Assembly (NCBI RefSeq): GCF_027912835.1
Contig: NZ_CP115768.1
Location: forward strand, 310,001-374,000
Reading direction: 5' to 3'
Length of the DNA: 64,000 nucleotides
From: Paracoccus sediminicola
Lineage (GTDB): Bacteria > Pseudomonadota > Alphaproteobacteria > Rhodobacterales > Rhodobacteraceae
Made by a program: the position numbers and the translations under genes. Numbering within the stretch: the stretch's first letter is position 1; each line of letters opens with the position of its first letter. Shown in pieces: positions 18,587-42,435 of this stretch. The notes beneath the pieces are model-generated. The model made no database searches. It was not told where the DNA came from and worked only from the letters and a program-made list of their open reading frames with translations.

Positions 18587-18869
18587 CTGCGGCTCTCCTG
18601 TGATCGCCCGTCCAACTCTGGTCCGGCGGCGCGCGTGGTGCAAGCACGGCGCGCGGCCTGGGGCCGCACGAACCGCAGCGTCTGGTCCGCACCAAGGCGT
18701 TCAGCTTTTGGCGCAAGTTTCCGCCGAACCGGTCAAGCCGCCCGGATTTGTCGTGGACCGACAGGAAAGCGTCATACAGTCTTGCTCTTGATGGAACTGC
18801 CTTGGCTGTCCGCCATCCATCGTCGCATCGTCCTGGCCGATGCGAGCCTGCCATACGGGAGTAACGAGC

Positions 18870-21800: not shown

Positions 21801-21956
21801 TATGCGGCGCTTGAGAATGGCGAATTGCTGGTTATCGACGGCCAGAACGAGTTGGCTTATTCCGATCAGGTCGCCATCGGAGCGACCGGGATCGCCGATG
21901 ACGCACCGCATTTTGGCGGAAACGCTCCGCCGCAACTCGATGATGCGACCTCGTGA
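18870..21956 (+). CDS. 1028-aa multidomain protein: LysM plus DUF6973-like C-terminal domain, candidate secreted toxin or effector
   Basis: Start at ATG 18870 (GGAG eight bases before). No signal peptide. Residues about 40-560 are Gly/Asp-rich with beta-strand character and no recognised family. Residues about 565-630 look SH3-like (AMRDAPGGAQDTVIQSGSFL, VEGWVAADIL). A LysM repeat is at about 642-692 (NDDNLWDLAKQYGADPQEM). A Pro/Ser-rich linker spans about 693-820. The C-terminal domain carries HNDAFRHAYWNA, FATAHEGV and MDLYNNEVGRR (about 904-965), which I recognise as DUF6973-like, a domain found at the C-terminus of large secreted or toxin-like proteins. It overlaps the next gene by one base and lies just upstream of the T3SS. 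Secretion by the T3SS is an inference. Confidence 0.75.
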   Translation: MFVLGLRPQQIADRITALPRQFAPKPEPKSSERNGGCTDLPEVKLPDTGSGRRGGEPPVKVEPLGDGTGSGIVDAAKGAKDGVLIAEGVDGLNGEGDSAYLRMTPAIGAAGNLRVAELGGEAMLGADMRVTQNGEGDDATYTLRYEKHALAGATGKMGTDTLGRGRADKTGEDLPVDAAGKAALSGQSFDAVEMTFDSKEDAIRAAETLQRLTLADAAGDVFGATGPGLGPIGIATGSGGNPLANPLNGDGAPGPLAQRLAGVSAEDMAHLEENITAYESTFGGRQRLALELGGDVKHFDAAVEGRVDPTQRITRRVELATDTQAGSLSYTMRAGVDVTGSQKLKKGFEAQGAGIGGRVANLKDLASASTEVTLNYELPANTDPTRSPGGRPVPEYDALTGKGDLELDSVQLRQEAEFSAQSLHDPSRTDLRRLSAEVTLNDPDQIKTAMSRLRDGDFEGAAAASGAEVELNSQEISRSGVDTVSGVSFDFGIGNVDASVIFESGVDEITAEHSLTVSAGHPKAVAEGLPGGMARSTGATRIPPGPEDDGKTFVVTPWSGAAMRDAPGGAQDTVIQSGSFLRDTGDRGTDAAGNDFIKVSGTDVNDRPVEGWVAADILAPHSSATGAMDATGRTNPSLEHQRYDAVTVENDDNLWDLAKQYGADPQEMVALNRDHLQNPSLIFKGDTVYMPGTSRGPEPETIAQPATPPAASSPLAPERATSERSGSPGSEVPTNPEPTSGAEPGRVSDDETSPDLPSGSGAQPVPPGYPGSASSPQPSPGPVYGPQNPAPTASEAPAETDPAAPSPAPAAGPGDAGGRADLDRILQEYQVREDQMVEEYRPKFAGVEISVFPAQRVTRAEADLLDRLSAFELKDMKDIKDAAYARADAQIPQTGADGMPVAGGNDGHNDAFRHAYWNATMTSRFGEDYAASFATAHEGVPNNQADREAMDLYNNEVGRRIAVENPDATADELADLVYAALENGELLVIDGQNELAYSDQVAIGATGIADDAPHFGGNAPPQLDDATS

Positions 21957-23716: not shown

Positions 23717-24343
23717 ATGTTACGAGATTTCGGCGCTCAGATGTCACGGATTGCGCCGGTCCTCCGGTTGATTTCGCTTGGCTTGACGATGCTGGTCGCA
23801 ACACTGGGCGAAGCGCGGGCTCAGCTGGACGTGTCTAGCGATAACGAAATGCTTGAGCTTCCGTTTCCCTATGAGGCGAATGAAGTGCAGATCGAGGCGA
23901 TGATGCAGGACGTGATGAGCAAGACCGACATGCCGGTGATTCTCGCCGAGAATCTGGGCGGACGGGTCTCTGTTTCCAATCCTGACGGCACGTTGCGTGA
24001 TCTGCTGGATGAGATGGCGCGCGACGGTAAGGCGGCCTGGTGGTTCGACGGGCGCGCGATCCATATCGAGGGCGCGGGCAGCATGGTCAGCCGTCTGATT
24101 CCGCTGAACGGTTTCAGCATCGGCGAGTTGCGCGATCAGCTTGCCGAAACCGGCCTGGCAAGCGACCGCTACCCGCTGCGCGGCGGTGCCGACGCCGAGA
24201 TGGCGCGGCTGGTGGCGCCGCAGGGCTATGCCGATGCGGTGGCCGAGCTGGCGGCGCATATGACCGCCACCCGCGAAGAAACCGCGCCAGCCGAAAAAAG
24301 ACTGCCCACGGTCATCCGCGGAAGGGGCCGCGTCCGGCAATGA
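23717..24343 (+). CDS. SctC N-terminal (N0-N1) secretin-like protein, RhcC1-like, no pore domain
   Basis: 208 aa. The ATG at 23717 is used; an in-frame ATG at 23741 also precedes the signal peptide (ending about ARAQ). The mature part matches the T3SS secretin N0/N1 pattern: FPYEANEVQIEAMMQDV, then WWFDGRAIHIEG, SRLIPLNGF, and YPLRGGADAEMARLVAP, which corresponds to the family's RFPLR...VSGPPRYV block. It ends there in a basic tail; no secretin pore domain follows. Rhizobial systems also split the secretin (RhcC1/RhcC2). Probably a periplasmic ring piece working with the secretin at 39988. First gene of the T3SS unit. Confidence 0.78.
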   Translation: MLRDFGAQMSRIAPVLRLISLGLTMLVATLGEARAQLDVSSDNEMLELPFPYEANEVQIEAMMQDVMSKTDMPVILAENLGGRVSVSNPDGTLRDLLDEMARDGKAAWWFDGRAIHIEGAGSMVSRLIPLNGFSIGELRDQLAETGLASDRYPLRGGADAEMARLVAPQGYADAVAELAAHMTATREETAPAEKRLPTVIRGRGRVRQ

Positions 24344-26188: not shown

Positions 26189-26212
26189 GCCGCGCTCAGC
26201 CGGGTCACTGTG

Positions 26213-27007
26213 ATGCGTATATATCGTTTTCTCATCGCATTCTGTGCGATGCTCGCCCTCGCGGGCTGCAAGGCCGAACTCTATACCGGGCTCACCGAGC
26301 GCGAGGCGAATGAAATGGTCGCGGCGCTGATGGGGGCCGGCATCCCCGCATCTAAGACGGGTGGGGCCGAAGGTGTCGCGGTCTCGGTAGATGAGGCGCG
26401 TTTCCCCGAAGCGATGGCTCTGCTGGACAAGCGCGGCCTGCCAGCGCGCCAATACGAGAGCATGGGCGAGGTGTTCGAGAAAGAGGGGCTCGTGTCTTCT
26501 CCAACCGAGGAACGTGCCCGGCTGATCTATGCGCTGAGCGAGGAGCTTTCCCGAACCGTGGCCGAAATCGACGGGGTGCTGTCGGCGCGGATCCATGTCG
26601 TGCTGCCGGAATCGGACATGCTTGGCCGTGACGTAAAGCCATCCTCGGCGTCGGTCTTCGTGCGCTATGCGGCGGATACGAATGTTCAGGACTACGCCTC
26701 GCAGATCAAGTTGCTGGTGGCGAATTCCATCGAGGGTCTGCTCTACGACAATATCACCGTAGTCATGGTGCCCGCGGCCGCGGATGCCGAAGAGGCCGCG
26801 CCGGTCGAATTCGCCAATGTGCTCGGGATCTGGACCCATCCGGGCTCTGAGCAGCGCCTTTGGCTGACGCTCGGCGGGCTGGCGGCGGCTGTGTTGGCGC
26901 TGGCGGCGGGGCTGGGACTGATGCTGTGGCGCGGCAGCCGAAAACCGCGCCGGTCCGCGACATCGCCGGTCCTGACAGACGATCTTGGCGAGGAGGCAGG
27001 GCCATGA
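26213..27007 (+). CDS. sctJ: SctJ inner-membrane ring lipoprotein
   Basis: 264 aa from ATG 26213 (GTG 26210 possible). Lipoprotein signal MRIYRFLIAFCAMLALAGC, then the YscJ/FliF ring-building fold: LYTGLTEREANEMVAALMGAGIPA, QYESMGEVFEKEGLVSSPTEER, LSEELSRTVAEIDGVLSARIHVVLPE and SASVFVRY. A C-terminal TM (about 210-232) ends in a basic cytoplasmic tail. Length of about 260 is that of SctJ, not of flagellar FliF (about 550), which separates this locus from flagella. Overlaps sctK by 4 bp. Confidence 0.95.
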   Translation: MRIYRFLIAFCAMLALAGCKAELYTGLTEREANEMVAALMGAGIPASKTGGAEGVAVSVDEARFPEAMALLDKRGLPARQYESMGEVFEKEGLVSSPTEERARLIYALSEELSRTVAEIDGVLSARIHVVLPESDMLGRDVKPSSASVFVRYAADTNVQDYASQIKLLVANSIEGLLYDNITVVMVPAAADAEEAAPVEFANVLGIWTHPGSEQRLWLTLGGLAAAVLALAAGLGLMLWRGSRKPRRSATSPVLTDDLGEEAGP

Positions 27008-27657: not shown

Positions 27658-28247
27658 GCCGTTCGCGCATTCTCAGCCGCGATGAGGTGGGCCGGCTGCG
27701 CGCGGCTGACCGCATCCTGCGTGACGCAGAACGGGCCGAACGGGAAAGCCGCGAACACAGCGCGAAGCTGGAACAGGATATCGTCAGCGAGGCCCGGCTG
27801 AAGGCGATGCGAGAATCGGCCAGGACCGCAGCCAGCCTGATTGCGCGGGCTGAAGAGGCCGCCGAGGCACGGCTGCGCGATCTGGAACCCGAGCTGGCGC
27901 GGCTGGTGGCGCAGACCGTGCGCAGCATTCTCGGCGATTTCGAGCCGGAAGAGGCCAGCTATCTTGCCGCGCGGCAGGCTCTGTCGAAACTGCGCGACCA
28001 TCGGCGCGGTCGCATCTTCGCGGCGCCGGAGATGGCGGGGCCGGTGGGTCGCGCCGTGGACGATCTGGGCGAGAACGGCCCCGAGATCCTGTCGGTGATC
28101 CCCGATCCCGCGATGGAGCGCGGCAGCGCCGTACTGAGCAGCGACCGGGGCAGCACAGAAATCGGGCTGGACAGGCTGACGGCACAGGCGCTTTCGCCTT
28201 GGGAACGCAGCAATGCAACAGGCGGCCAGGATGGGGACGGATCATGA
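27654..28247 (+). CDS. sctL: SctL stator protein of the T3SS ATPase
   Basis: 197 aa, ATGA overlap with sctK. Arg/Glu/Ala-rich coiled coil over about residues 10-85 (RILRDAERAERESREHSAKLEQDI), then the FliH/SctL C-terminal fold (LARLVAQTVRSILGDFEPEEA) and a GSAVLSSDRGSTEIGLDRLTAQ end. SctL dimers connect SctN to SctQ and restrain its ATPase activity. Confidence 0.9.
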   Translation: MSRSRILSRDEVGRLRAADRILRDAERAERESREHSAKLEQDIVSEARLKAMRESARTAASLIARAEEAAEARLRDLEPELARLVAQTVRSILGDFEPEEASYLAARQALSKLRDHRRGRIFAAPEMAGPVGRAVDDLGENGPEILSVIPDPAMERGSAVLSSDRGSTEIGLDRLTAQALSPWERSNATGGQDGDGS

Positions 28248-29572
28248 CCGAGATCGCCGCCAACCCGCTGTTGGATCAGCTTCGCGCCCGCGCCAGCCGG
28301 ATCGAAGCGGTCGAGTTGCGTGGCCGGGTCACGCGCATTCTCGGCTGCGTGGTTCATGCCCGGATGGCCGATGGGCGCGTGGGCGAGGAATGTCTGCTGC
28401 GCGATCCGGTCAGCCGGGTCGAGATCACCGCCGAGATCATCGGCTTCGACGGCGAAGAGGCGATTCTCGCGCCGTCGGGCGATGTGCGTGGTCTGTCGTC
28501 GCGCACCGAAGTGTTGCCGACCCGCGCCGAACCGCTGGGGCCCGCCGGGCCGGAGCTTCTGGGCCGCGTGGTGGATGGGTTCGGCCGTCCCCTCGATGAC
28601 GGCGCGGCAATCAAGGGCTCGGCGTCGCTGAACGCGGCCCCGCCGGGGCCATTGCAGCGGCCTGTGATCGACCGGCCCTTCGCGACCGGGGTGCGCGCCA
28701 TAGACGGGCTGTTGACCATGGGAGAGGGGCAGCGCATGGGCGTTTTCGGCGCCGCCGGTGTCGGGAAATCGACCTTGCTGTCGCAGATCATCCGGGGTGC
28801 GGATGCCGATGCCATCGTGCTCGGACTGATCGGCGAGCGGGGGCGGGAGGTGGCCGAGTTTCTGGAACGCGATCTCGGCCCCGAGGGGCGCAAGCGGGCA
28901 GCGGTGTTCGTCGCCACCTCGGATCGGCCCGCCACGGAACGGCTGCGCGCCACGCTGGCAGCGACGGCCTGCGCCGAAGATCTGCGCCGGCGCGGCAAAC
29001 GCGTGCTGCTGTTGATCGACAGCATCACCCGTGTCGCCCGCGCGCTGCGGGAAATCGGGCTCGCCGCTGGTGAGCCTCCGGTCAGGCGCGGCTTCCCACC
29101 GTCGGTCTTTGCCGCGCTGCCGCGCCTGGTGGAACGACCCGGACGGACGCGCGATGGGGTGATCACCGCCATCTATACGATCCTGGTCGAGGGCGACGAT
29201 GACGATGCCGATCCCGTCGCGGACGAAATGCGCAGCCTGTTGGACGGCCATATCATCCTGTCACGCAATATGGCCGCGCAGGGGCATTACCCTGCCATCG
29301 ATGTGCTGCGCAGCAAGAGCCGGATCATGGGGGCCGTCTCTGCACCCGATCAGATGAGCCAGAGCCAGCGCATCGCCGCGCGGCTGGCGAAGCTGAACGA
29401 GATCGAGATCCTTGTGCAGGTCGGGGAATATCGCGCCGGCGCCGATCCCCTGGCCGACGAGGCGCTGAAGATGCGCGCCCAGACCGAAGCCTTCCTGCGT
29501 CAGGGCAGCGATGAGCGCAGCTCGCGCGACGAGACGCTCGGGGCGCTCGCGGCTCTGGTGAGTGAGCCATGA
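28244..29572 (+). CDS. sctN: SctN T3SS ATPase
   Basis: 442 aa from ATG 28244 (ATGA overlap with sctL). Walker A GAAGVGKST near residues 168-176, catalytic Glu context GLIGERGREV, Walker B VLLLIDSITRVARA, and TILVEGDDDDADPVADEMRSLLDGHI typical of FliI/SctN rotary ATPases. The short N-terminal domain and the following SctO gene fit the T3SS form. It forms the hexamer that unfolds substrates and releases chaperones. Confidence 0.96.
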   Translation: MTEIAANPLLDQLRARASRIEAVELRGRVTRILGCVVHARMADGRVGEECLLRDPVSRVEITAEIIGFDGEEAILAPSGDVRGLSSRTEVLPTRAEPLGPAGPELLGRVVDGFGRPLDDGAAIKGSASLNAAPPGPLQRPVIDRPFATGVRAIDGLLTMGEGQRMGVFGAAGVGKSTLLSQIIRGADADAIVLGLIGERGREVAEFLERDLGPEGRKRAAVFVATSDRPATERLRATLAATACAEDLRRRGKRVLLLIDSITRVARALREIGLAAGEPPVRRGFPPSVFAALPRLVERPGRTRDGVITAIYTILVEGDDDDADPVADEMRSLLDGHIILSRNMAAQGHYPAIDVLRSKSRIMGAVSAPDQMSQSQRIAARLAKLNEIEILVQVGEYRAGADPLADEALKMRAQTEAFLRQGSDERSSRDETLGALAALVSEP

Positions 29573-30084
29573 CACAGCGTCTGTATCAGGTCGACCGGCT
29601 GGTGCAGCTTGCCGAGCTGCGTGAAGAGGCAGCGCGGCGCGGGGTGGCGGCGGCGCTGCATGCCCTGTCGGAGCAGCGGTCCGAGAAGCGTCGGGCCGAG
29701 GCGGCGCTGGCGGCGCTGTCCCGCGAACAGGCCGAGCGGCGCGCGGCATTGCGCGATCCGCTTATCGGTTCGGCGCAGCTGCGCGGAGCGCTGTCATCGG
29801 TGCTGACCACATTCGAGGCGGATCGCGACCGCGAGGCGCAGGCGCAGGCGGCGATTGCCGCCGCCGCTCAGGCGATCACCGCCGCCGAAAAAGAGCTCGA
29901 CGAGGCCCGAACGTCCCTGCTGCGTGCATGCCGTCTGTCGGAAAAGCGCCGCCGGATGCGCGCGCCCATTGCCGAAGCCATTGCGCGGCAGCGTGAACGG
30001 CGCGAGGAGGCCGAGGCCGAAGAAACCCGCATGATCCGTCGTGTCACGAGCGCAGCCGCCATGCTGGATGAGAACGCGCGATGA
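29569..30084 (+). CDS. sctO: SctO stalk protein (YscO/FliJ-like)
   Basis: 171 aa, ATGA overlaps at both ends. Almost entirely a long Arg/Glu/Ala coiled-coil hairpin (AELREEAARRGVAAALHALSE to REEAEAEETRMIRRVTSAA). Lies between sctN and sctQ, the standard place for the FliJ-like stalk that couples the ATPase to SctV. No separate SctP ruler gene lies next to it. Confidence 0.85.
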   Translation: MTQRLYQVDRLVQLAELREEAARRGVAAALHALSEQRSEKRRAEAALAALSREQAERRAALRDPLIGSAQLRGALSSVLTTFEADRDREAQAQAAIAAAAQAITAAEKELDEARTSLLRACRLSEKRRRMRAPIAEAIARQRERREEAEAEETRMIRRVTSAAAMLDENAR

Positions 30085-31310
30085 GAGATTCCGGGCTCGA
30101 TACGCAGGCGCTGACCGGGCGGCTGGTGCTCTCTGGTCCAGCTTCGGGAGTGGCTGAGGGCGACGCGCCGCGGCAGGCGGTTCTCGCGCGGCGCCGGCTT
30201 GGCCGCGAGCAGGCTGATGTTCAGAACCTGCTCTGCCGTCATCGCGGGCCAGTCACGCTGCGCGCCGGCGGCGTGGCCTTGCAGGCCTGGCTCGCCGCGC
30301 CGATTAACATGCCTGCGGGCGGGGTCTGGCTGGGGCTGGAGATCGACAGTTATCCCGCGCGGATCGGTCTGTCCTGGGGCCACGCGCGCCGCCTGACCGG
30401 GCTGCCGCTGGAAAGCGCCGACCCCGGCGACGCCGCGCTGCTGATCGAAGAGGCGTTGTCGGGCTGGCTGGACGATGTCGAGGATCAGACCAGCCTGTCA
30501 TTGCGGCTGACGCGGCTGTCCGCCGAGGCCCCTGACGACACCATGTTGCGCTTCAGCCTCCGGGCCGAGCTGCGCAGCCGCAGCGCGCCGGCGCCACAGC
30601 GACTGAACCTGCCGCTGGCGCTTTCTGCCGAGGCCGGGCGCAGCTTTGCCGCCGCGCTGACGCGCTGGAACCGGCCCCGCGGCATCCCCGGCGGAGTTTT
30701 CCTGAAGGTCAGCGCCGAGATCGATTCAATGCGGCTGAGTATGCAAGAGCTGCGCTCTCTCGTGCCAGGCGATGCGCTTGTCCTGCCGGATCTGCCGCAG
30801 GCTGGTCATGTGCTGATCGAATCGCAGCTGATCGCCCCGGCAATGCCGGGCTCTGACGGGCCGTTGCCCGATCGCTGGGTGCTGCAATCCGGCTTTGCGC
30901 CGCGCGCGCCTTTTTCCCTGATCTCAAGTGACGAGTCGAAAATCACGATGTCCGATGATACGCCGAAAGACCCCGCCGCCGAGACCGCGCCTCGCACTGA
31001 CGAGAAGCAGGCCGAGGGGCGGAATGACGAGACTGAAACGAGCGCGGCGAAACCTCCGCGCCAGCCCGAGCCCGAACAGCCCTCGACGCTCGATGCGGTC
31101 GAGATGCGGCTGTCGTTCCGATTGGGCGAGACGCTCATGTCGGTTGCGGATCTGCGCAAGGCCGGGCCGGGGACGGTGGTGACGCTGGATCGCCCGGACG
31201 GAGCGGTTGTCGATATTCTCGCCAATGGCCAGCTCATCGGCACCGGCGAGGTGATCGCCGTCGCCGGGCAGCGCGCGGTCGAGATCCGCAGCCTCTTCGG
31301 CGACGACTGA
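30081..31310 (+). CDS. sctQ: SctQ sorting-platform/C-ring protein
   Basis: 409 aa, ATGA overlap with sctO. The poorly conserved N-terminal half is followed by a charged linker (TPKDPAAETAPRTDEKQAEG, about 292-335) and a C-terminal SpoA domain (LSFRLGETLMSVADLRKAGPG then VVDILANGQLIGTGEVIAV). An in-frame ATG at 30948, right before the linker, could give a separate C-terminal SctQ fragment as in Yersinia and Salmonella; its ribosome-binding site is weak. Confidence 0.92.
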   Translation: MRDSGLDTQALTGRLVLSGPASGVAEGDAPRQAVLARRRLGREQADVQNLLCRHRGPVTLRAGGVALQAWLAAPINMPAGGVWLGLEIDSYPARIGLSWGHARRLTGLPLESADPGDAALLIEEALSGWLDDVEDQTSLSLRLTRLSAEAPDDTMLRFSLRAELRSRSAPAPQRLNLPLALSAEAGRSFAAALTRWNRPRGIPGGVFLKVSAEIDSMRLSMQELRSLVPGDALVLPDLPQAGHVLIESQLIAPAMPGSDGPLPDRWVLQSGFAPRAPFSLISSDESKITMSDDTPKDPAAETAPRTDEKQAEGRNDETETSAAKPPRQPEPEQPSTLDAVEMRLSFRLGETLMSVADLRKAGPGTVVTLDRPDGAVVDILANGQLIGTGEVIAVAGQRAVEIRSLFGDD

Positions 31311-32229: not shown

Positions 32230-33053
32230 CCGAACTTGCCGACACGTTGCCTGACAGCGTGACGCGGATTCTCGTGCTGCTCGCAGTGGTGGGCGCGCGG
32301 CCTATGGGCTTCGTGATGCTGCATCCGATCTTCGGGCGGTTCGGCATCAGCAGCGGCGTGCTGCGCGGCGCGGTCATCGTGGCGATGGTGGCGCCGGTGC
32401 TGCCCGGGGCCGCGGCGATGATTACGGCAGATCCGGGCATCGTCGCGCCCGCCGCGGTGCCGGGGCTGATCCTGGCCGAGCTGTTCATCGGCGCCTTGCT
32501 GGGTCTGATGACCGGAATCCCGTTCTGGGCAGCTTCGGCGGCGGGCGATCTGATCGACAACCAGCGAAGCGCTTCGATGGCGAATCTGATGGACCCGCAA
32601 TCTTCGGGCGAGACCTCGGTGACGGGCACGCTGCTGTTTCTGACCTGCATTCTCGTTCTGGCGGCAGAGGGCGTGCTGTTTCCGACCATTTTCGGCCCCC
32701 TAATGGAGAGCTATCGCCTGTTTCCGGCGCTCTCCGGCCTGTCGCTGCCCGATCCGCGTCAGGGCGCGCTGGCGCTCGGCCTGCTGGATCAGCTTCTTCG
32801 CGCCGGGGTCATCATGGCGCTGCCGATCCTCATCCCGCTCCTGCTGACCGAGATCGTGGTCGCGATTGCCACGAAATACACCCAGCAGATCAATGCGATG
32901 TTCCTGTCGATGTCGATCAAGCAGGGCGTGAATGCGTTGCTGATGCTGGTCTATACGGTGCTGCTCGCCAGCTATGCGATGAGCCAGATCGGGCAGGGCC
33001 CGTTCGGAACCGAGGCGCTTGCACCCTTCCTGCGGGGCAGCGTCGATGAGTAA
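32226..33053 (+). CDS. sctT: SctT export-gate membrane protein
   Basis: 275 aa, six to eight hydrophobic segments. Family features: MTGIPFWAASAAGDLIDNQRSASMANLMDPQSSGETS and the LPILIPLLLTEIVVAIATKYTQQINAMF segment in parts. Overlaps sctU by 8 bp (ATGAGTAA). Confidence 0.96.
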   Translation: MTELADTLPDSVTRILVLLAVVGARPMGFVMLHPIFGRFGISSGVLRGAVIVAMVAPVLPGAAAMITADPGIVAPAAVPGLILAELFIGALLGLMTGIPFWAASAAGDLIDNQRSASMANLMDPQSSGETSVTGTLLFLTCILVLAAEGVLFPTIFGPLMESYRLFPALSGLSLPDPRQGALALGLLDQLLRAGVIMALPILIPLLLTEIVVAIATKYTQQINAMFLSMSIKQGVNALLMLVYTVLLASYAMSQIGQGPFGTEALAPFLRGSVDE

Positions 33054-34077
33054 CGAGACTTCGGAAGAAAAAAACCTTCCGCCGTCGCAGCACAAGCTGC
33101 GCAAGGCGCGCGAAAAGGGGCAGGTGGTGACCTCGAAAGAAGCGCTCGCCTCGGTCTCGATGGCTGCGGTGCTGATCTATCTGTTCATGCGCCGCGACGC
33201 GATCAGCGCGGATCTTCAAACGCTGTTCATGCTGGAGGAGGTCACCGATGCGGGATTTGCCGGGGCGCTCGCGGAAAAGGCGCGGATCTGTTTCAGGCTG
33301 GCGGTGGGGATCGTGCTGCCGATTCTCATCACCGTTGTCACCGTCTCGGTTCTGGGCGGGGTGGTGGTTTCGGGCGGGCCGGTCTTCTCGACCCATCCGC
33401 TGATCCCGGATTTCAACAAGATCAACCCGGCTGGCGGGTTTAAAAAGATCTTCGGGCGCCGCGCGATGATGGGGTTCCTGATGCATTGCGTTCGGCTGAT
33501 CACGCTGTTGGTCGCACCGGCGCTGATTCTATGGGGCAGCTTCGGGGCTCTGATGGCGGCGCCGCCCTGCGGGCTGGGATGCATGGGCGAGGCGATACAG
33601 GCGATGCTGGTGCCGCTGCTCATCGCCTTGCTGACCATGTTGGTCGTGGCGATGTTGCTGGATTACCTCGTGCAGCGCTCGGAGTTCATGCGCGAACAGA
33701 AGATGTCGATCACCGAGTTCAAGCGTGAGCTGAAGGATCAGGATGGCGACCCGCTTCTGAAAGGCCAGATGCGTCAGGACCAGCGGGCGATGGTCGAGCG
33801 TCCCACCGGGCTGTCGCAGGCCACGGCGCTGATCCATGACGCACCGAACAGCGTCGTCGGGCTGCGCTATGTCGATGGGGACACCCCCGCGCCGCTCGTG
33901 GTGATCCGCGCGCGCGGCGGTGATTCGGTGAGTCGCATCTTGCGCGCAGCAGCGGCGAGGATCCGGATCAGCCACGATCCGGCAGCGGTGGCGGCGATTT
34001 CCGGCGTGGCGGTCGGCGATTATGTTGTCGAGGACGATCAGATCGAAGCGATTGCGCATTTCCTGCGGCCGGGCTGA
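33046..34077 (+). CDS. sctU: SctU export switch protein with altered autocleavage motif
   Basis: 343 aa from ATG 33046. Start region KNLPPSQHKLRKAREKGQVV is diagnostic; four TM segments span about 45-215, then a cytoplasmic domain with EFMREQKMSITEFKRELKDQDGDP. The sequence aligned with the autocleavage loop reads IHDAPNSVVGLRY, so the family NPTH (cleaved between Asn and Pro) is replaced by DAPN at residues 265-268 (bases 33838-33849). The flanking Y-x-x-G-x-x-P-x-P context (YVDGDTPAPLVV) is kept. SctU normally switches export from early to late substrates after self-cleavage; that reaction looks impossible here. Confidence 0.93.
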   Translation: MSNETSEEKNLPPSQHKLRKAREKGQVVTSKEALASVSMAAVLIYLFMRRDAISADLQTLFMLEEVTDAGFAGALAEKARICFRLAVGIVLPILITVVTVSVLGGVVVSGGPVFSTHPLIPDFNKINPAGGFKKIFGRRAMMGFLMHCVRLITLLVAPALILWGSFGALMAAPPCGLGCMGEAIQAMLVPLLIALLTMLVVAMLLDYLVQRSEFMREQKMSITEFKRELKDQDGDPLLKGQMRQDQRAMVERPTGLSQATALIHDAPNSVVGLRYVDGDTPAPLVVIRARGGDSVSRILRAAAARIRISHDPAAVAAISGVAVGDYVVEDDQIEAIAHFLRPG

Positions 34078-34206: not shown

Positions 34207-35277
34207 TCAGCTATAGCTGTTCCAGCTGTTATAGCCCGAGTTGCTCGCCGAGGAGAGCAGCGAGTTGGTGAGCGTGGCGTAACCCAGCATCATCGCGAAC
34301 TGCATGGTTTCCTGCGCCATGTCGACATAACGGCTGTTCTGGGCGTCGTCGGCGTTGTGGCTGCCGAAGCTGGTGTCGAACAGCGCGCCGACCTCGTAGC
34401 TCTCTACCGTGTCCTTGTCACCACGGCGCGACATGGAGCCGTCGGCCCGCTCGATCGCGCCGCCGCCCTGGGCGCCTTTGCCCTTGTCGCCGTTGCGCGC
34501 CTTGCCGTCGCCGTCGAAGGTCTGGCCGATCAGACCGTGGGGGCGCACGCCGTCCGACACCGCGTTGGCGGTATCGATATCCATGTTGATCATGTTGCCC
34601 TTGGTCTGGAATTCGACCTCCCACTCGCCTTTCTTGACGGTGATATCGTCGCCGTTCTTCTCGACATAGCCGCCGCCGCTCAGCCCGACGCGGTCGCCAT
34701 CCTTCAGCGCCTGCCCGTTAACGATGACGGCGCCGCTCTTGTCGACCTCGACATAGTTGCTGCCGGCGGTGATTCCGGCCTTGCCGACCACGGTCGCGCC
34801 GCCATTCCCCCATTTCTCGAAGGTGCCGTTCATCTGGAAGCCGCGATCGGAGAGCAGGTTGTAGGTCTTGCCCGCCTCGCCCTGCACATCGTATTTGCCG
34901 CCATCGGCGCCGATGAAATGGGGGTCGCCCCAGATCCGCGCCGAGCCCGAGATGGCGGGCTGTTCGGTCTGTTCGGAGGCGTTCCAAAGCGATTCGCCGT
35001 CGAACCCTTTCGAGCCGTTCCACAGCGCGTCGTCGAGGAACGAGAACTCCCCCGCGCCGCTGGCGCTTCCGCTGCCTTCGCTGCCGCTTTCATTGCCGCC
35101 CAGCATCCGCGCGAGGCTTGCAAGCCCGGCAAATGCCATCAGCATGTCGAAGCCCTGCAGGCCAGAGTTCGACCCCGCGCCGCCAAAGAGGCCGCCAAAC
35201 CCCCGCTGCGACTGGCATCCGGTCGTCCCGGAGCATTGAGGCGTGAAGTAATTGTAGGTGTTGCTGATGCTTGTCAT
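34207..35277 (-). CDS. GDPH-motif (DUF1521/VWD-like) protein, NopE-type candidate T3SS effector
   Basis: 356 aa. The ATG at 35277 has AGAGGG six bases before; the ATG at 35283 abuts the site. Ser/Asn/Thr-rich N-terminus with no signal peptide (MTSISNTYNYFTPQCSG), a Gly/Met-rich hydrophobic stretch near 40-60, then a domain starting ARIWGDPHFIGADGGKYDVQG (about 115-135) with TYNLLSDRG and later RPHGLIGQTFDGDG. This matches the VWD/DUF1521 pattern. In Bradyrhizobium NopE1/NopE2, DUF1521 is a T3SS-secreted domain that self-cleaves at GD-PH when calcium is bound. Several Asp/Gly-rich loops could bind calcium. Divergent from the second T3SS unit. Confidence 0.72.
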   Translation of the reverse strand: MTSISNTYNYFTPQCSGTTGCQSQRGFGGLFGGAGSNSGLQGFDMLMAFAGLASLARMLGGNESGSEGSGSASGAGEFSFLDDALWNGSKGFDGESLWNASEQTEQPAISGSARIWGDPHFIGADGGKYDVQGEAGKTYNLLSDRGFQMNGTFEKWGNGGATVVGKAGITAGSNYVEVDKSGAVIVNGQALKDGDRVGLSGGGYVEKNGDDITVKKGEWEVEFQTKGNMINMDIDTANAVSDGVRPHGLIGQTFDGDGKARNGDKGKGAQGGGAIERADGSMSRRGDKDTVESYEVGALFDTSFGSHNADDAQNSRYVDMAQETMQFAMMLGYATLTNSLLSSASNSGYNSWNSYS

Positions 35278-35386
35278 CGTCATCCCTCTTTACGGTGGTT
35301 AACACTACTCAGTCGCCAGCGAGGCTTACTGTCCAGAAAGAATGTGACGATTTAGTGGCAGCGCCTTACCCTGCGCGGAAAGCTGC

Positions 35387-36008: not shown

Positions 36009-36081
36009 ATTCCCGAATAATGCGTTTCGCGGTCCGGCCCGGCCGGATCGGGCGACGCGGTTAAGCGATGCGGTGTTACCC

Positions 36082-37059
36082 ATGACCAGCCAAGCGAAGC
36101 CCTTTTTGCTGACAGTTCTCAGCGGCCCCAATGCCGGCGCCACCGCCCGCATTGCCTCGGGTCGCTTTTCCATTGGCGGCGGAGAAAGCGACCGGATCGT
36201 GCTCTCGGGTCTGCCGGCCGATCGTCTGGCGCTGCGCCTGACGGATGATCGCGTGCGGCTGCGCCCCGCAGGTGCCGAGATCCGTTACGAGGATCATCAC
36301 AGCGGCGAGCTGCGGATTCTCCGGGCCGACAAGACCCATGAGGCCGAGTTGCCTGCGACGCTACGGCTCGATGCCGAAACGAGCATCCTGCTTTCGCGCA
36401 CCGGCGCGCATGGTCCGGCAAAGCGTGGCCTGCGGGCCGGTGCCGGTGCTGCCGGGCTGGCGCTGGCGGCGGGGTTGTGGATCGGTGCGCAATTCGGCGG
36501 TCCGGCGACGCCGGCCAATGCCGCCTTCAGCGCGGTCGAGAGCGCCGATACAGCGATTGCGGCTGCCGGCACTCCGGGCGTGGCAGACGCTACCGCGGAA
36601 GATTTCGAAACGACGACAACCGGCGCCGCGCGGCTTGTCGCCACCTCGCCCCGGCTGAGCTGCGATGCGGAATGCGTCGAGGGGATTTCGACAGAATTCC
36701 GCGCCCGGATGCGCGATGCCGGGCTGACCGGTCTGACGCTGCGCGCCGAGGATGGTGTGCTGCGCGTCGATGGCACGATGTCGGCTGAACAAGCTGGCGT
36801 CTGGCGCGAATTGAGGGCGAAATTCGAAGCCGAGAACGGGCAGAGCCTGCCGCTTGTCGCCCAGATCAGCGAGGGTCAGCCCAAGCCGGTTCTGGCGATC
36901 GCCTCTGTCTGGCTGGGTCAGGATCCCGAGATCCGCACCCGAAGCGGCGATGTGCTGCGCGTCGGCGATCAGACGGGCGATGGCTGGACGGTCGAGGCGA
37001 TCTCGCGCGGGGAGGTCGGTCTGGAGCGGGACGGCGAACAGATCAGCGTGCGGTTCTGA
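36082..37059 (+). CDS. sctD: SctD inner-membrane ring protein
   Basis: 325 aa from ATG 36082 (a GTG at 36073 is the alternative). N-terminal FHA-like domain (FLLTVLSGPNAGATARIASG, SIGGGESDRIVL) to about residue 95, a TM near 118-138 (AGAAGLALAAGLWIGAQFGG), and a periplasmic part with a BON-like repeat (LRAEDGVLRVDGTMSAEQAG) and a late DVLRVGDQTGDGWTVEAIS segment. This cytoplasmic-FHA, TM, periplasmic layout is that of SctD, shorter than YscD (about 420). Confidence 0.88.
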   Translation: MTSQAKPFLLTVLSGPNAGATARIASGRFSIGGGESDRIVLSGLPADRLALRLTDDRVRLRPAGAEIRYEDHHSGELRILRADKTHEAELPATLRLDAETSILLSRTGAHGPAKRGLRAGAGAAGLALAAGLWIGAQFGGPATPANAAFSAVESADTAIAAAGTPGVADATAEDFETTTTGAARLVATSPRLSCDAECVEGISTEFRARMRDAGLTGLTLRAEDGVLRVDGTMSAEQAGVWRELRAKFEAENGQSLPLVAQISEGQPKPVLAIASVWLGQDPEIRTRSGDVLRVGDQTGDGWTVEAISRGEVGLERDGEQISVRF

Positions 37060-37430: not shown

Positions 37431-37940
37431 GTGTCTCAGCTTCCTCAGTCCCTCCCCATAGATGCGCGCTATCTCGACGACGAGCTTTACGCCGATACGC
37501 CAGAGATCACCGATCTGAGCGGCTGGAGTTTCGACGACGCTGGCACCGGCTGGGCTGGGCGGGATGAAACGCTGCCGCGCGAACATGGGCGGACGCTTGC
37601 CGGGCTCGGGCTGGTCTATCTGCGTCATAACCATCCGGCGCGGGCGATGGTGCTGGGTCTTGCGGCAATGTCGATGGGCGATCTGCGCCCGGCCACAATC
37701 CTCATGGTCGGCGAGGCGATGCTGGCTGCGGGCGATCCCGAACAGGCGCTGAGCGTGCTGAGCCGGTTCGACCGCGATGACGGGCTGGAAGAGACGCCTA
37801 GCCAGGCCGAACGCGCGGCGCGGCATTATCTCGCGGCGCGAGTGCTCTATCGGCGCGGAAATATCGAGGCCGCGCAGGACGAAATGGCCATCGCGCGCAA
37901 GATCGCAGCAACCGGCGCATCGGCCGGAGACGCGCCATGA
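37431..37940 (+). CDS. TPR protein, SctY-like chaperone candidate
   Basis: 169 aa; GTG start at 37431. TPR units in LAGLGLVYLRHNHPARAMVLGLAAMSMGD, MVGEAMLAAGDPEQALSVLSRF and HYLAARVLYRRGNIEAAQDEM. ATGA overlap with sctV. In systems with SctX/SctY, the TPR chaperone SctY binds SctX and both bind SctV; direct placement before sctV suggests the same. Confidence 0.62.
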   Translation: MSQLPQSLPIDARYLDDELYADTPEITDLSGWSFDDAGTGWAGRDETLPREHGRTLAGLGLVYLRHNHPARAMVLGLAAMSMGDLRPATILMVGEAMLAAGDPEQALSVLSRFDRDDGLEETPSQAERAARHYLAARVLYRRGNIEAAQDEMAIARKIAATGASAGDAP

Positions 37941-39991
37941 ACCTCGTCACCGGGTTTCTGCGTCGCGTGACCGCCAGCCAGGACTTGGCGCTTGTGGTGC
38001 TGCTGATCCTGATCGTGTTCATGATCGTGCTGCCGCTGCCGACCTGGCTGATCGATCTGGCAATCGGCTTCAACCTGTCGCTTTCGGTGCTGATCCTCAT
38101 CGTCGCGGTCTATCTGCGCAATCCCGTTTCGCTTTCGACGCTGCCGGCGATCCTTCTCTTTGCGACGCTGTTCAGGCTGGCCATCGGCATCTCGACCACG
38201 CGGATGATCCTGTTGCAGGCGGATGCCGGGCGCATCGTCGAGACCTTCGGGGAATTCGTGCTCGGCGGTTCGCTGGTGGTCGGCATCGTGGTGTTTCTCA
38301 TCATCACCATCGTGCAGTTCATCGTCATCACCAAAGGATCCGAGCGTGTGGCCGAGGTCTCGGCGCGGTTCTCGCTCGACGCGCTGCCGGGGCGGCAGAT
38401 GTCCATCGACAGCGACATGCGCGCGGGCGAGATCGACATGGCCGAGGCGCGACGCCGCCGCGAAGCATTGCAGATGGAAAGCGAATTCTACGGTGCCATG
38501 GACGGCGCGATGAAATTCGTGAAGGGCGACGCGATTGCCGGGCTGATCATCATTGCGGTGAATATTCTGGGCGGGCTTGGCGTCGGCGTCGGGCAGAACG
38601 GGATGAGTTTCCCCGACGCGCTGCAACTCTATTCGGTGCTGACCGTCGGTGACGGGATGGTCAGCCAGATCCCGGCGCTCATCATCGCGATCAGCTCGGG
38701 CATCGTCATCACCCGGATCACGCATGAGGGATCGTCGGATCTCGGCCGCGATATTGCCGCACAGATCGGTGGCAGCGCGCGCCCGCTCTATGTCGCCGCG
38801 GTCGTGTTGCTGGGTTTCGCCGCGATCCCGGGCTTCCCGACCCTGACCTTCATCGCACTTTCGGCGGCCTTCGCGGTGGCCGGGCTGCTCGCCTCGCGCC
38901 GCGCCCGTGCGAGCGACGAGGCCGCGCTGGAGGCCAATCAGGGCCGGGTGGAAACGCGGCAGGATCTGCTGATGGTGCCGATGCCGCCGGTGCAGCTTTC
39001 GGTCGGCTCGGGGATACTGGGCAGTGTCGAGCGCGGGGCATTCGAGGATGCCGCGCTGCGTGAGCGCACGCGGCTCTTCGACGAACTCGGCGTGCCATTT
39101 CCACGGCTTCAGCTTTCCGCCGATCCGGCGATGCCCGAGGATCGCTGGCAGTTGCGGGTCGAGAATGTGCCGGTGGCCGAAGGTCAGATGCCGGTGCGCA
39201 AATTGCGGCTGACCGATCAGCCCGATGCGGCGCGCATCGCCGGGGCGCCGGTCGAACGCGGAGGCGACGCAGCGGCGGATCTGCAAGGCTGGTGGTGCCC
39301 GCAGGATGCGGCGAACGATCTGCGCCGCGCCGGTATCCCGTTTCAGACCCCGTCCGACGCGCTTGTCCGCATGGTCGGCACCCGCCTGCCGCGTCATGCC
39401 GCCGAATTTCTCGGTGTGCAGGAGGTCAGCGCGCTGCTTTCCGCAACCGAGGCCCGCTATGCCAGCCTCGTCGCCGAGGCACAGAAGGCGCTGCCCTTGC
39501 AGAAGATCGCGGCAGTGCTGCGCCGTCTGGTGGAGGAGGAGATCCCGATCCGCAACATGCGGATCGTTCTGGAAACCATCGTGGACTGGGCCCCGCGCGA
39601 GAAAGACCCGGAACTTCTGGCCGAATATGTTCGCGCCGCGCTCGCCCGGCAGATCAGCTTCAAATATGCCGACGAGGATCGCCTCATCCCGGCCTATGTC
39701 GTCGAAGCGGATATCGAGGAAACGATTCGCGGCGCCATCCGTCAGGCGCCCTCCGGCGTCTATCTTGCGCTCGAGGCGCAGCAATCGCGCAAGCTTCTCG
39801 ATACGCTGAAATCCGCGGTCGGCGATGTGTCCGGCCATGTCCGCCCACCGGTGTTTCTGTCCAGTATGGATATTCGCCGGTTCCTGCGCCGCTTCCTGGC
39901 CAATCACGACATCAACCTTGCGGTGATGTCGCACAAGGAAGTCGCGCCCAATTACAAGGTCCAACCTCTCGCCATGTTGACAATCAAATGA
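37937..39991 (+). CDS. sctV: SctV major export apparatus protein
   Basis: 684 aa. About seven to eight TM segments to residue 315. The FHIPEP signature is present as RNPVSLSTLPAILLFATLFRLAIGISTTRMIL, followed by FSLDALPGRQMSIDSDMRAG in the FHIPEP loop. The C-terminal domain (about 345-684) forms the nonameric export ring and includes EIPIRNMRIVLETIVDWAP. ATGA overlaps on both sides, including with the downstream secretin, so SctV and the outer-membrane pore are translationally coupled. Confidence 0.96.
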   Translation: MNLVTGFLRRVTASQDLALVVLLILIVFMIVLPLPTWLIDLAIGFNLSLSVLILIVAVYLRNPVSLSTLPAILLFATLFRLAIGISTTRMILLQADAGRIVETFGEFVLGGSLVVGIVVFLIITIVQFIVITKGSERVAEVSARFSLDALPGRQMSIDSDMRAGEIDMAEARRRREALQMESEFYGAMDGAMKFVKGDAIAGLIIIAVNILGGLGVGVGQNGMSFPDALQLYSVLTVGDGMVSQIPALIIAISSGIVITRITHEGSSDLGRDIAAQIGGSARPLYVAAVVLLGFAAIPGFPTLTFIALSAAFAVAGLLASRRARASDEAALEANQGRVETRQDLLMVPMPPVQLSVGSGILGSVERGAFEDAALRERTRLFDELGVPFPRLQLSADPAMPEDRWQLRVENVPVAEGQMPVRKLRLTDQPDAARIAGAPVERGGDAAADLQGWWCPQDAANDLRRAGIPFQTPSDALVRMVGTRLPRHAAEFLGVQEVSALLSATEARYASLVAEAQKALPLQKIAAVLRRLVEEEIPIRNMRIVLETIVDWAPREKDPELLAEYVRAALARQISFKYADEDRLIPAYVVEADIEETIRGAIRQAPSGVYLALEAQQSRKLLDTLKSAVGDVSGHVRPPVFLSSMDIRRFLRRFLANHDINLAVMSHKEVAPNYKVQPLAMLTIK

Positions 39992-41229
39992 ACCAGTTGA
40001 TCCGTTTACCGCTTTCCCTGGCCCTCGGCGCCATTCTCGTCATGATGATGCTGACGACCGATGCCGTGGCCCAGACCCGCATGGTCATCACCGAAGGAGA
40101 GGGCCGCGCCATCGACCTTCCCGCCGGGACCGAGACGGTCTTCGTCGCCGATCCCAGCATCGCCGACGCGCAGGCCATGGCTCCCGGCTCGATCTATGTG
40201 ACCGGGATGTCTTCGGGACGCACAAATCTCGTCTTGAGTGACATCAACAATAACCAGATCGGCACCTACACGATCGAGGTGCAGGCCGCTGGCGGCGGTG
40301 CCGGGGCATTGCTGGATGACGGTTTGTCGGCGCAGCAGCGCGAGAATGTCGTCATCATTTCGGGGAATGCGGGCAATGTGAACGCGGCGCGCTCAGTTGC
40401 GGCGGCGCAGGGCGCGTTCGAATCCCAAGGGCTCCAGGTGCAGGACCAGACCAGCTATAGCGGCGGCACGCAGGTTTCGCTGCGGGTGCGCTTTGTCGAG
40501 GCATCGCGCAACGATCTGCAACGGCTGGGTGTCAATCTTGCTGCGCTCGGATCGTCGTCCGGCGGGCCGCTGCGGGTGACCACGGGGCTGGCCGATCCGA
40601 GCGGCTTCATCGGCGGCGGCAGCGCGGGCGGGCCGGCCATCGGAGGCGCGGCGACGTCGGGCAGCTTCACCATCGACACGCTGATCGACGCGCTGGAAAC
40701 ACGCGGCGCGGTGCAAATCCTGTCCGAGCCGACGCTGACGACCACCTCTGGCACGCGGGCCAGCTTTCGCGCCGGGGGCGAGATCGCCTATCCGATCAAT
40801 CAGGGCGACGGGGTGATCTCGGCCGGGTTCAAGGAATATGGCGTGTCCATCGATTTCACCCCGACCATCCTGCCCAATAATCGCATCGCCATCGAGGTTC
40901 AGCCCGAGGTGAGCTTTCTCGACGCCTCGAGCTCTGTCTCGGTCGAGGGGTTTCAGGTGCCGGGCGTCTCGGTGCGCCGGGCCGATACGACGGTCGAGGT
41001 GGCCAGCGGCCAGACCTTCGCGATTGCCGGGCTGTACGAACAATTCTCCGAAAACGAATCGCAGGGCGTGCCGGGCTTCGGCAATGTGCTTGGAAATAAT
41101 TCCCGCACCCGGCGCGAGCGCGAGCTGATCATCTTCATCACGCCCTATCTCTCGGAAGCGCGTGACGTCGCGCAGCCACGTGCACAGCGCCGCGCGCCGC
41201 AAGCCAGCGTGGGGTTCATGACACGATGA
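39988..41229 (+). CDS. Full-length secretin of CpaC/RcpA (Tad) type, probable T3SS outer-membrane pore
   Basis: 413 aa from ATG 39988, overlapping the sctV stop (ATGA). Signal peptide ending AVAQ. Pilus-assembly N-terminal domain (about 30-105: ITEGEGRAIDLPAGTETVFV, DPSIADAQAMAPGSIYVTG), BON-like segment (NVVIISGNAGNVNAARSVAA), then the secretin pore (about 165-395) with ALETRGAVQILSEPTLTTTSG, YGVSIDFTPTIL and ELIIFITPYLSEA. This layout is that of Tad pilus CpaC/RcpA, not canonical SctC. No Tad motor, platform or pilin genes lie in the window, so it most likely serves the T3SS together with the N0/N1 protein at 23717, like RhcC2. Confidence 0.88.
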   Translation: MNQLIRLPLSLALGAILVMMMLTTDAVAQTRMVITEGEGRAIDLPAGTETVFVADPSIADAQAMAPGSIYVTGMSSGRTNLVLSDINNNQIGTYTIEVQAAGGGAGALLDDGLSAQQRENVVIISGNAGNVNAARSVAAAQGAFESQGLQVQDQTSYSGGTQVSLRVRFVEASRNDLQRLGVNLAALGSSSGGPLRVTTGLADPSGFIGGGSAGGPAIGGAATSGSFTIDTLIDALETRGAVQILSEPTLTTTSGTRASFRAGGEIAYPINQGDGVISAGFKEYGVSIDFTPTILPNNRIAIEVQPEVSFLDASSSVSVEGFQVPGVSVRRADTTVEVASGQTFAIAGLYEQFSENESQGVPGFGNVLGNNSRTRRERELIIFITPYLSEARDVAQPRAQRRAPQASVGFMTR

Positions 41230-41645
41230 AAAGGCTTATATTCCTTGCCCCGCTGATGCTCGCCGCCTGTGCCGAGCCGATGATCAAGGATTCGGATGTG
41301 ATCCGGAATGCAGCCGATCCCGCCTATACCTATAGCGAGGGCGGCCAGATCATCCCCAGCTCATGCCTGGGCCGGGCCTCCAGCTATTCCGGCACGGCCT
41401 CGGCCTGTCAACGCGACGTGGCCTTTGCCCGGCAGGTGGTGAATCCGTCGGATCTCGTCGCGCCGCGTCCGGCCGGTCCGCCGCCAGCGGGGCCCGTGGG
41501 CCGCGCCGTTGATAGCTATGTCAATCCAGAGCCGCCGATCACCTCAGGGGTGCCGGATGTGCCGGGTTCTGCACCGACGGGACGGATGCTGACAGGGCAG
41601 GGCGGGGCGCCTTACGACCCATACGCGCCACAGATGCCATATTAG
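41226..41645 (+). CDS. CpaD/RcpB-like lipoprotein
   Basis: 139 aa, ATGA overlap with the secretin. Signal and lipobox MKRLIFLAPLMLAAC (Cys15). The segment ACQRDVAFARQVVNPSDLVAPR (about 60-82), followed by GPVGRAVDSY, resembles the conserved CpaD block (Cys...N/D-LA...V-x-x-P-x-DL-x-x-PR...Y). The C-terminal 45 residues are Pro/Gly-rich. CpaD/RcpB is an outer-membrane partner of the Tad secretin, which strengthens the view of a borrowed Tad module. Confidence 0.68.
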   Translation: MKRLIFLAPLMLAACAEPMIKDSDVIRNAADPAYTYSEGGQIIPSSCLGRASSYSGTASACQRDVAFARQVVNPSDLVAPRPAGPPPAGPVGRAVDSYVNPEPPITSGVPDVPGSAPTGRMLTGQGGAPYDPYAPQMPY

Positions 41646-41691: not shown

Positions 41692-42435
41692 TCAGCTTGC
41701 CAGCACGCCAAAGGCGTCCATGCCCTTGGTCCGGGCGCGGCGGCCAAGGGTCAGGATCTCGTTGATCTCATCCGATCCCAGCCCAAGCTGCGCGCCATCC
41801 TGCCGGGCGAAGGCGTCATAACCGGTCATGCCGCCGACAAGAACCAGATTTCGCCGATGCGAATAGGTCGAATCCGGCGCGAATGCGGCAGCGCGTGCGA
41901 TCGCATAGGCTTCGGGATCGCCTGACAGCCCGCCGACAATCGCGATATTGGTGCGCACATCCAGATTGCGCGGCGCCGTCGCACTGGCGGCATCCAGAAC
42001 CTGCCGCGCTTCCGAGAGCCTGTTCAGCCCTGCCAGCGCGCCAGCCCTTAGCAGGGTCGAGCGGATATCGGTGCCTCCGGCCTGCCGCACGGTCTCGAGC
42101 GCGCCGGAATAATCCCCGAGCGCGAGCTGGCCTTCGCCGAAGCCAAGCCGCGCCTGCCGATCCGTCGAATCGACGAGAAGCGCCTCGCGATAGGCCCCCA
42201 TCGCCTCGCTCCAATTGCCGCTTTCCGCCTGCATGTCGCCGATATTGCGCAGCGCCGCCGAGTCGTTCGGATCGCGTTGAAGATCCCCGCGCAACTCGGC
42301 CAGCCGCTGCGTCGATGTGGTCAGCGCGGAAGGATCCTGCCCGAAATTCGGATCGGCACAGCCAGCCAGCGCGGTCAGGACGGCAAGAAGGGGCGCGTGG
42401 CGCGGGCGGACGAAACTGAAAACTGGATATGACAT
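41692..42435 (-). CDS. TadD-like TPR lipoprotein
   Basis: 247 aa. Signal with lipobox LTALAGC (Cys26). TPR repeats: RDPNDSAALRNIGDMQAESG, EAMGAYREALLVDSTDRQARL, GEGQLALGDYSGALETV. The later part (NLVLVGGMTGYDAFARQDG, near 205-223) matches the TadD end region. TadD-type proteins are secretin pilotins or assembly factors in Tad systems. Convergent to the T3SS unit, 46 bp from the CpaD-like gene. Confidence 0.78.
   Translation of the reverse strand: MSYPVFSFVRPRHAPLLAVLTALAGCADPNFGQDPSALTTSTQRLAELRGDLQRDPNDSAALRNIGDMQAESGNWSEAMGAYREALLVDSTDRQARLGFGEGQLALGDYSGALETVRQAGGTDIRSTLLRAGALAGLNRLSEARQVLDAASATAPRNLDVRTNIAIVGGLSGDPEAYAIARAAAFAPDSTYSHRRNLVLVGGMTGYDAFARQDGAQLGLGSDEINEILTLGRRARTKGMDAFGVLAS

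Follow-up and report, generated by a model that had tools for sequence, protein, structure and literature searches.

A Tad-type secretin and a separate N0/N1 protein in a Rhc-type type III secretion locus of Paracoccus sediminicola

What does it mean when the only secretin beside a type III secretion system (T3SS) is of a pilus type, and the ring domains that a T3SS secretin normally carries are encoded elsewhere? The question is raised by a 64,000-nucleotide stretch of Paracoccus sediminicola DNA (assembly GCF_027912835.1, contig NZ_CP115768.1, positions 310,001–374,000), hereafter the window, whose own coordinates are used throughout. A first-pass annotation, made from the letters alone, had read the gene at 39988–41229 as a CpaC/RcpA-type secretin of the Tad pilus kind, and a 208-aa protein encoded at 23717 as the bare N0/N1 region of a T3SS secretin. 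Both readings stand. We propose, with a probability of about 0.83, that together they form the outer-membrane part of a Rhc-type split-secretin T3SS, made of an N0/N1 collar, a Tad-type pore and a TadD-like pilot, the import of the pore being shared with Rhc subgroup II.

The division into RhcC1 and RhcC2 and the Tad recruitment, which the first-pass annotation had mentioned, were published for rhizobia in 2012, so neither the split nor its Tad origin is new. Abby and Rocha (2012, PMC3459982) showed that the RhcC2 of rhizobia falls among the Tad secretins and that RhcC1 is what remains of the N-terminal part of a normal T3SS secretin, and suggested that RhcC1 links SctD to RhcC2; Rhc subgroups I–III were described by Gazi et al. 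2012 (PMC3574062); and a split secretin occurs also in the P. syringae T3SS-2 (PMC3459982, PMC3574062).

A secretin divided between two genes

The genes on which the argument turns are the following (TPR, tetratricopeptide repeat).

23717–24343, forward: RhcC1-like protein, 208 aa; signal-like N-terminus, T3SS-type N0 and N1, tail TVIRGRG; no pore domain
37937–39991, forward: SctV export gate; TIGR01399 (hrcV), over cut-off
39988–41229, forward: RhcC2-like secretin of CpaC/RcpA type, predicted outer-membrane pore; PF13629 and PF00263, match to RcpA of 8odn, trees; ends in VGFMTR
41226–41645, forward: short CpaD-like lipoprotein; PF09476 at E 0.0035, below cut-off; lipobox LAAC
41692–42435, reverse: TadD-like TPR lipoprotein, probable pilotin; TPR match, lipobox LAGC, position beside the secretin

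The secretin gene is coupled to sctV by an ATGA overlap, and through a second ATGA its stop overlaps the CpaD-like lipoprotein gene, whose profile match and position are both kept in relatives. The 41692 protein shares 33% identity over 164 aa with Skermanella TadD, and its TPR repeats, lipobox and place beside the secretin fit a TadD-type pilotin. The 23717 product matches TIGR02516 only over positions 4–141, and resembles the N0/N1 region of InvG both in sequence and in fold. Its gene lies 16 kb from that of the secretin, which in an 84-row tree is separate from canonical SctC. The idea that one ring would draw its N-domains and its pore from two distant genes of different ancestry is supported.

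Given the Tad domain order of the secretin and its CpaD-like and TadD-like neighbours, it might be argued that it is part of a Tad-like pilus, or is used by two machines at once, and stands beside sctV by accident. The source genome (99.99% complete) has a single PF00263 match, which is this secretin. It gave no T2SSF match (TadB/TadC, PilC, GspF) in a search where the Caulobacter control was positive, and no Tad ATPase, the three PF00437 matches over cut-off being TrbB and VirB11; the search for a Tad locus relied on these two families, T2SSF and T2SSE, and not on CpaB, Flp or TadE. With one secretin and no TadB/TadC relative, no Tad pilus appears to use the secretin. Neither of the two outcomes that the first-pass annotation had named as refuting its reading, a grouping with canonical SctC or a complete Tad locus just outside the window, was seen. 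The genus points the same way, since the genomes with T2SSF matches (7 of the 121 Paracoccus genomes sampled) and those with the T3SS (12 of 121) do not overlap. Barring a Tad locus in unassembled sequence, the pilus explanation is refuted by the genome searches, and we give it next to no weight.

A secretin is present in 21 of the 121 Paracoccus genomes. The 12 with a split-secretin T3SS comprise 11 with a full-length SctV over cut-off and G093, whose SctV is broken by contig ends; weaker SctV-family matches in most other genomes include flagellar FlhA and were left unsorted. Every one of these genomes carries a single secretin, which lies behind sctV, and the stand-alone N0/N1 gene is present in all 12, including G106 and G093. 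The T3SS type of the window occurs in 11 of them. The twelfth genome, G081 (L090, L129, L139), has a subgroup II T3SS, the secretin of which is closest to that of Cereibacter flavus (L040) and not of the Paracoccus type; two different split-secretin systems thus exist within the genus. Six further Paracoccus genomes outside the 12 have CpaC-type secretins (L091–L095, L106); the 3.5 kb inspected there gave no match to CpaB, in which they differ from the remaining Tad loci studied.

Conflicting histories of pore and core

The remaining T3SS components of the window, several of which enter the core tree below, are these.

26210–27007, forward: SctJ inner-membrane ring lipoprotein; TIGR02544, over cut-off
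28199–29572, forward: SctN ATPase; TIGR01026 (FliI/YscN subfamily), over cut-off
30081–31310, forward: SctQ cytoplasmic ring; PF01052 (FliMN_C)
33019–34077, forward: SctU export switch; TIGR01404 at E 1e-59, below cut-off; true start probably slightly inside this open reading frame (ORF)
36073–37059, forward: SctD inner-membrane ring; PF23893 and PF21934 over cut-off, TIGR02500 at E 1e-19, below cut-off; FHA-like domain, BON-like domain 3 and Y4yQ C-terminal domain
37431–37940, forward: small TPR protein ahead of sctV; TPR matches below cut-off; position that of the SctY-like proteins of Rhc subgroup II in PMC3574062

We sampled 80 SctV loci out of 564 encoding a relative. In 16 of the 80 a Tad-type secretin immediately follows sctV (L006–L010, L040, L044, L058, L059, L062, L068, L070, L073, L080, L081, L082), and in L036 it lies farther away on the other strand. 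The order sctD, small ORF, small TPR ORF, sctV, secretin, CpaD-like gene, TPR gene is common to the window and the subgroup II loci, and recurs on annotated plasmids of R. johnstonii, S. meliloti and Phyllobacterium. The annotated Tad loci examined have the order CpaB-CpaC-CpaD-(CpaE)-CpaF-TadB-TadC-TPR, so the T3SS loci keep the CpaC, CpaD and TadD parts without the motor.

Several loci met on the way deserve mention for themselves. A Klebsiella pneumoniae plasmid typed as conjugative (pAP855, L114) encodes a T3SS resembling those of subgroup II, its Tad-type secretin gene following sctV directly, and further Klebsiella plasmids stand beside it among the matches listed. In the T3SS locus of a Halomonas sp. 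PA16-9 plasmid (L261) the Tad-type secretin is divided between two overlapping open frames. The Geminicoccaceae genome G543 (locus L012) has a split T3SS with RhcC1, but no secretin was found in the 10 kb around sctV; another part of the genome encodes one that resembles subgroup II (L234). Small frames with PF13629 alone occur about 3 kb from a full-length CpaC-type frame in several alphaproteobacterial genomes (for example G128:C1:366762, G243:C2:2525525 and G219:C5:18096, of 159–176 aa in these three).

Secretin trees were computed for 84, 63, 61 and 81 rows, of which the 63-row tree (the 84 rows minus 12 named rows and 9 outgroup rows) and the 61-row tree are the careful ones; L234 and L225/L231 were assigned to groups by the tree alone, not from a T3SS context. 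The two careful trees join the secretins of the window's group to those of subgroup II at 100/99; the 84- and 81-row trees do so at 99 and 97 (Shimodaira–Hasegawa-like approximate likelihood ratio test), and 299 of 300 bootstrap trees agree. RhcC2 of subgroup I, that of pNGR234a (L257) included, sits among Tad secretins of Azospirillaceae, Burkholderiaceae and one other genome, with support of 100/97 and 97/87 in the 61-row tree. By best match, all 11 subgroup I secretins resemble a Tad secretin more than any of subgroup II, and all 13 subgroup II secretins resemble a Tad secretin more than any of subgroup I. In the CpaD tree, subgroup I CpaD groups with that of Skermanella and Azospirillum (96/90), and subgroup II is separate (100/99); its row L258 is an over-long frame (569 aa), of which the last 200 aa were kept for the combined secretin and CpaD test given below.

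The core tree, built from SctV, SctN, SctJ and SctU in sets of 39 and 27 rows, joins all split-secretin systems in one clade (100/100 in both). Paracoccus is its first branch, the remainder being united at 100/99 (39 rows) and 99/98 (27 rows). Nested within this remainder, subgroup I groups with L058, L036 and L012 (in the larger set L072 joins them), with support of 94/95 and 98/96, and its placement as outermost is rejected by the core data in an approximately unbiased (AU) test (p 0.0043). The secretin data in turn reject the core groups: secretins of subgroups I and II without Paracoccus as one clade gave p 0.0135, and those of subgroup I with L058, L036 and L234 gave p 7e-7 (L235, a copy of the L036 protein, included), the constrained groups having been chosen from the core tree when the secretin tree had already been seen. 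The pore thus seems not to have travelled with the core, and our reading of this conflict is that in subgroup I a second Tad cassette took the place of the earlier pore. The RhcC1 tree (141 columns) joins L058 to subgroup I (94/79) and places L036 and L012 apart from it; the collar therefore seems to follow the core partly. In that tree a weak branch (68/87) separates the 28 genuine stand-alone rows from the others. The result of an AU test in which the stand-alone proteins were held as a single clade (p 0.0248) was discounted: it addressed the wrong group because it included L074, a canonical SctC cut by a contig end.

Several observations weigh against the main proposal. The best outside match of the Paracoccus-type secretins is a subgroup II secretin in 4 of 7 cases and a Tad secretin in 3 of 7, so plain similarity fails to tie the Paracoccus pore to subgroup II. 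The CpaD tree sets the Paracoccus lipoprotein beside Burkholderiaceae Tad, perhaps owing to its short length and fast evolution. A tree of SctV by itself does not resolve where the Paracoccus group stands next to Rhc, and of the 39 rows in the larger core tree, 26 have SctN, 25 SctJ and 20 SctU, with eight rows of unusual composition.

That near-equal similarity, together with a long Paracoccus secretin stem (1.1–1.6 changes per site in the four secretin trees) and the position of the Paracoccus core outside subgroups I and II, would also suit an independent Tad import into Paracoccus, the common gene order arising because the block was inserted beside sctV twice or spread between systems. We hold this to be unlikely, given the strongly supported clade with subgroup II and the identical run of sctV, secretin, lipoprotein and TPR genes behind the same two small ORFs. 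About equally doubtful is the published scenario as usually read, in which one Tad import in the common ancestor of all split-secretin T3SSs was passed on vertically to subgroups I and II and Paracoccus. One clade of all T3SS-associated secretins does survive AU tests (p 0.264, 0.199 and 0.286, and 0.115 with CpaD added and Paracoccus left out), which also counts against a firm claim of a second import. Vertical inheritance, however, would make the secretins follow the core, and they fail the core groupings; the core data reject subgroup I as outermost; no bootstrap tree out of 300 unites all T3SS secretins; and each of the 11 subgroup I secretins matches a Tad secretin better than any of subgroup II. 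In its strict vertical form the single-import scenario is already contradicted.

We therefore return to an import shared by Paracoccus and subgroup II. On the trees, an ancestor of this alphaproteobacterial T3SS clade would have lost the C-terminal part of its SctC and acquired a secretin–CpaD–TPR block from a Tad locus; Paracoccus would be the earliest surviving branch of that clade in the sample, with a pore in common with subgroup II. The RhcC2 of subgroup I seems to stem from a second import that came later, although the tests do not reject one ultimate origin from Tad; possibly its pore was instead replaced by that of an unsampled T3SS lineage. The first-pass annotation had left open whether the window records the same event as rhizobia: for subgroup II it does so on these trees, and for subgroup I the AU tests and trees suggest a separate one. 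A bolder generalization, to which we give even odds, is that the pore is a swappable Tad cassette of secretin and CpaD-like lipoprotein, exchanged at least twice with the N0/N1 collar staying with the core (a first import in Paracoccus and subgroup II, an Azospirillaceae-like second in subgroup I), and that a remnant of the N3 domain at the end of RhcC1 is the docking piece that enables the swap.

Collar, joint and pilotin

The candidate for that remnant is the tail of RhcC1. In all 30 stand-alone RhcC1 proteins the chain after N1 runs into [VILM][FIVY][RH]G and then a variable end, as it does in two further ones (L324 and L325), and G202 is invariant in both alignments. At the equivalent place full-length SctC has VFPLK, VFRLR or IFKLK; a pattern for the first N3 strand, composed after the tails had been seen, fits 11 of 12, the twelfth (L074) having LFRLK, and the R/H-G form occurs in none of the 12. 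From this comparison the tail appears to retain strand one of the missing N3 domain, closed by R/H-G. In the structure model of the 23717 product this tail has low confidence and no strand. We propose the conserved end as a candidate joint to the pore.

As to the pilotin, the last residues of P. aeruginosa RcpA bind TadD (PMC10499894). G followed by F, Y or L occurs within the last six residues of all 12 Paracoccus-type secretins (11 Paracoccus, one Shimia metagenome-assembled genome), of 16/16 subgroup II, 7/9 subgroup I and 21/23 Tad secretins, and of 1/15 canonical SctC. It is also found in 4/4 Paracoccus GspD, which tells against reading much into it: the pattern is loose and not specific. 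The window's tip, VGFMTR, ends in a basic residue; among the 23 Tad tips, 14 have D or E as their final residue. By analogy, the 41692 protein is expected to be the pilotin of the secretin. The TPR lipoprotein Y4yS was proposed as a TadD-like pilotin by Mercante et al. 2015 (PMC4311626), who also mention a CpaD-like lipoprotein, and likewise in a commentary (PMC4500985).

Two lines of analysis were set aside. Co-variation between the TPR protein and the last residue of the secretin (46 pairs; six Tad loci lacked a usable TPR protein) gave a best column at r −0.73, which lies just before the conserved NLA motif and not at it, comes from related rows, and could not be mapped to P. aeruginosa TadD, no TadD chain being among the 60 of 78 PDB matches listed; it is not used as evidence. 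A structure predicted for the secretin from its own sequence alone scored badly (predicted local distance difference test score 35) and was not used either.

The following arrangement can be envisaged. The 208-aa protein would sit on the base made by SctD and SctJ as the lower ring in the periplasm, the part that N0-N1 plays in ordinary SctC; since SctC N0-N1 normally contacts SctD (PMC3459982) and the 23717 product has this fold, a collar on SctD is likely. The secretin, its family being established, would be the gated outer-membrane pore above this ring. The TPR lipoprotein would pilot it, probably by grasping the C-terminal GF tip, and the CpaD-like lipoprotein may assist.

Two other genes lie near or in the block. 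Just upstream of it, 18840–21956 (forward) encodes a product of 1038 aa in which LysM and DUF6973 (E 9e-24) domains are recognized, possibly secreted or wall-acting; a LysM protein adjoins sctT in a Phyllobacterium T3SS as well. Within the block, on the opposite strand, 34207–35283 encodes a 358-aa protein with a weak VWD match only (E 0.002, below cut-off), possibly secreted.

Comparison with named systems

A literature search judged by titles found no paper on a Paracoccus T3SS, and in the literature searched we did not meet Paracoccus as first branch, the core/pore conflict of subgroup I, or the N3-strand tail of RhcC1. The locus moves the origin of the split secretin from rhizobia and plant hosts to an older, non-rhizobial branch, and offers a natural test of how a machine changes its outer-membrane pore while keeping its base, with the conserved end of RhcC1 as a concrete candidate for the joint. 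It likely exposes a second pore swap in textbook systems; if so, the usual statement that rhizobia took up a Tad secretin once needs correcting.

Among described systems, Rhc subgroup II is nearest in layout. It shares with the window the stand-alone RhcC1, a Tad-type RhcC2 directly 3′ of sctV, a short CpaD-like lipoprotein gene followed by a TPR gene (on either strand), two small ORFs between sctD and sctV, and a common secretin clade. The two differ in arrangement: most subgroup II loci read have RhcC1 and sctJ in a block that points away from sctD, and have sctU beyond the TPR gene. In the window the genes from RhcC1 to SctU form one forward block ahead of sctD. The P. syringae T3SS-2, of subgroup II like pNGR234b, is compared here from its description in PMC3574062. 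Subgroup I (pNGR234a, Bradyrhizobium, M. loti) likewise has RhcC1 (NolW), a Tad-type RhcC2, a CpaD-type lipoprotein and a TPR lipoprotein (Y4yS), but its RhcC2 gene stands behind a response-regulator gene and does not adjoin sctV, and its CpaC and CpaD group with Azospirillaceae Tad genes (CpaC also with those of Burkholderiaceae), not with those of the window.

With the CpaC-CpaD-TadD set of the Tad pilus (P. aeruginosa RcpA/TadD, 8odn) the window has in common the secretin architecture, the GF-type tip and the pairing of a lipoprotein with a TPR pilotin; its secretin stands beside a T3SS core, and the TadB/TadC and CpaF motor that marks a Tad pilus was not found in the genome search. With canonical SctC (InvG, MxiD, EscC) it shares the N0-N1 fold of the 23717 product; it lacks the single N0-N1-N3-secretin chain and the grouping with SctC, as N0-N1 and pore are separate genes and the pore is from another family. 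The gene order is that of subgroup II, yet the core proteins do not nest there: we do not file the window under subgroup II because the Paracoccus core branches before subgroups I and II. By its separate RhcC1, its CpaC/RcpA-type RhcC2 and a core in one clade with Rhc, it is a Rhc-type split-secretin T3SS, and thus a new, early-branching, non-rhizobial member of that group.

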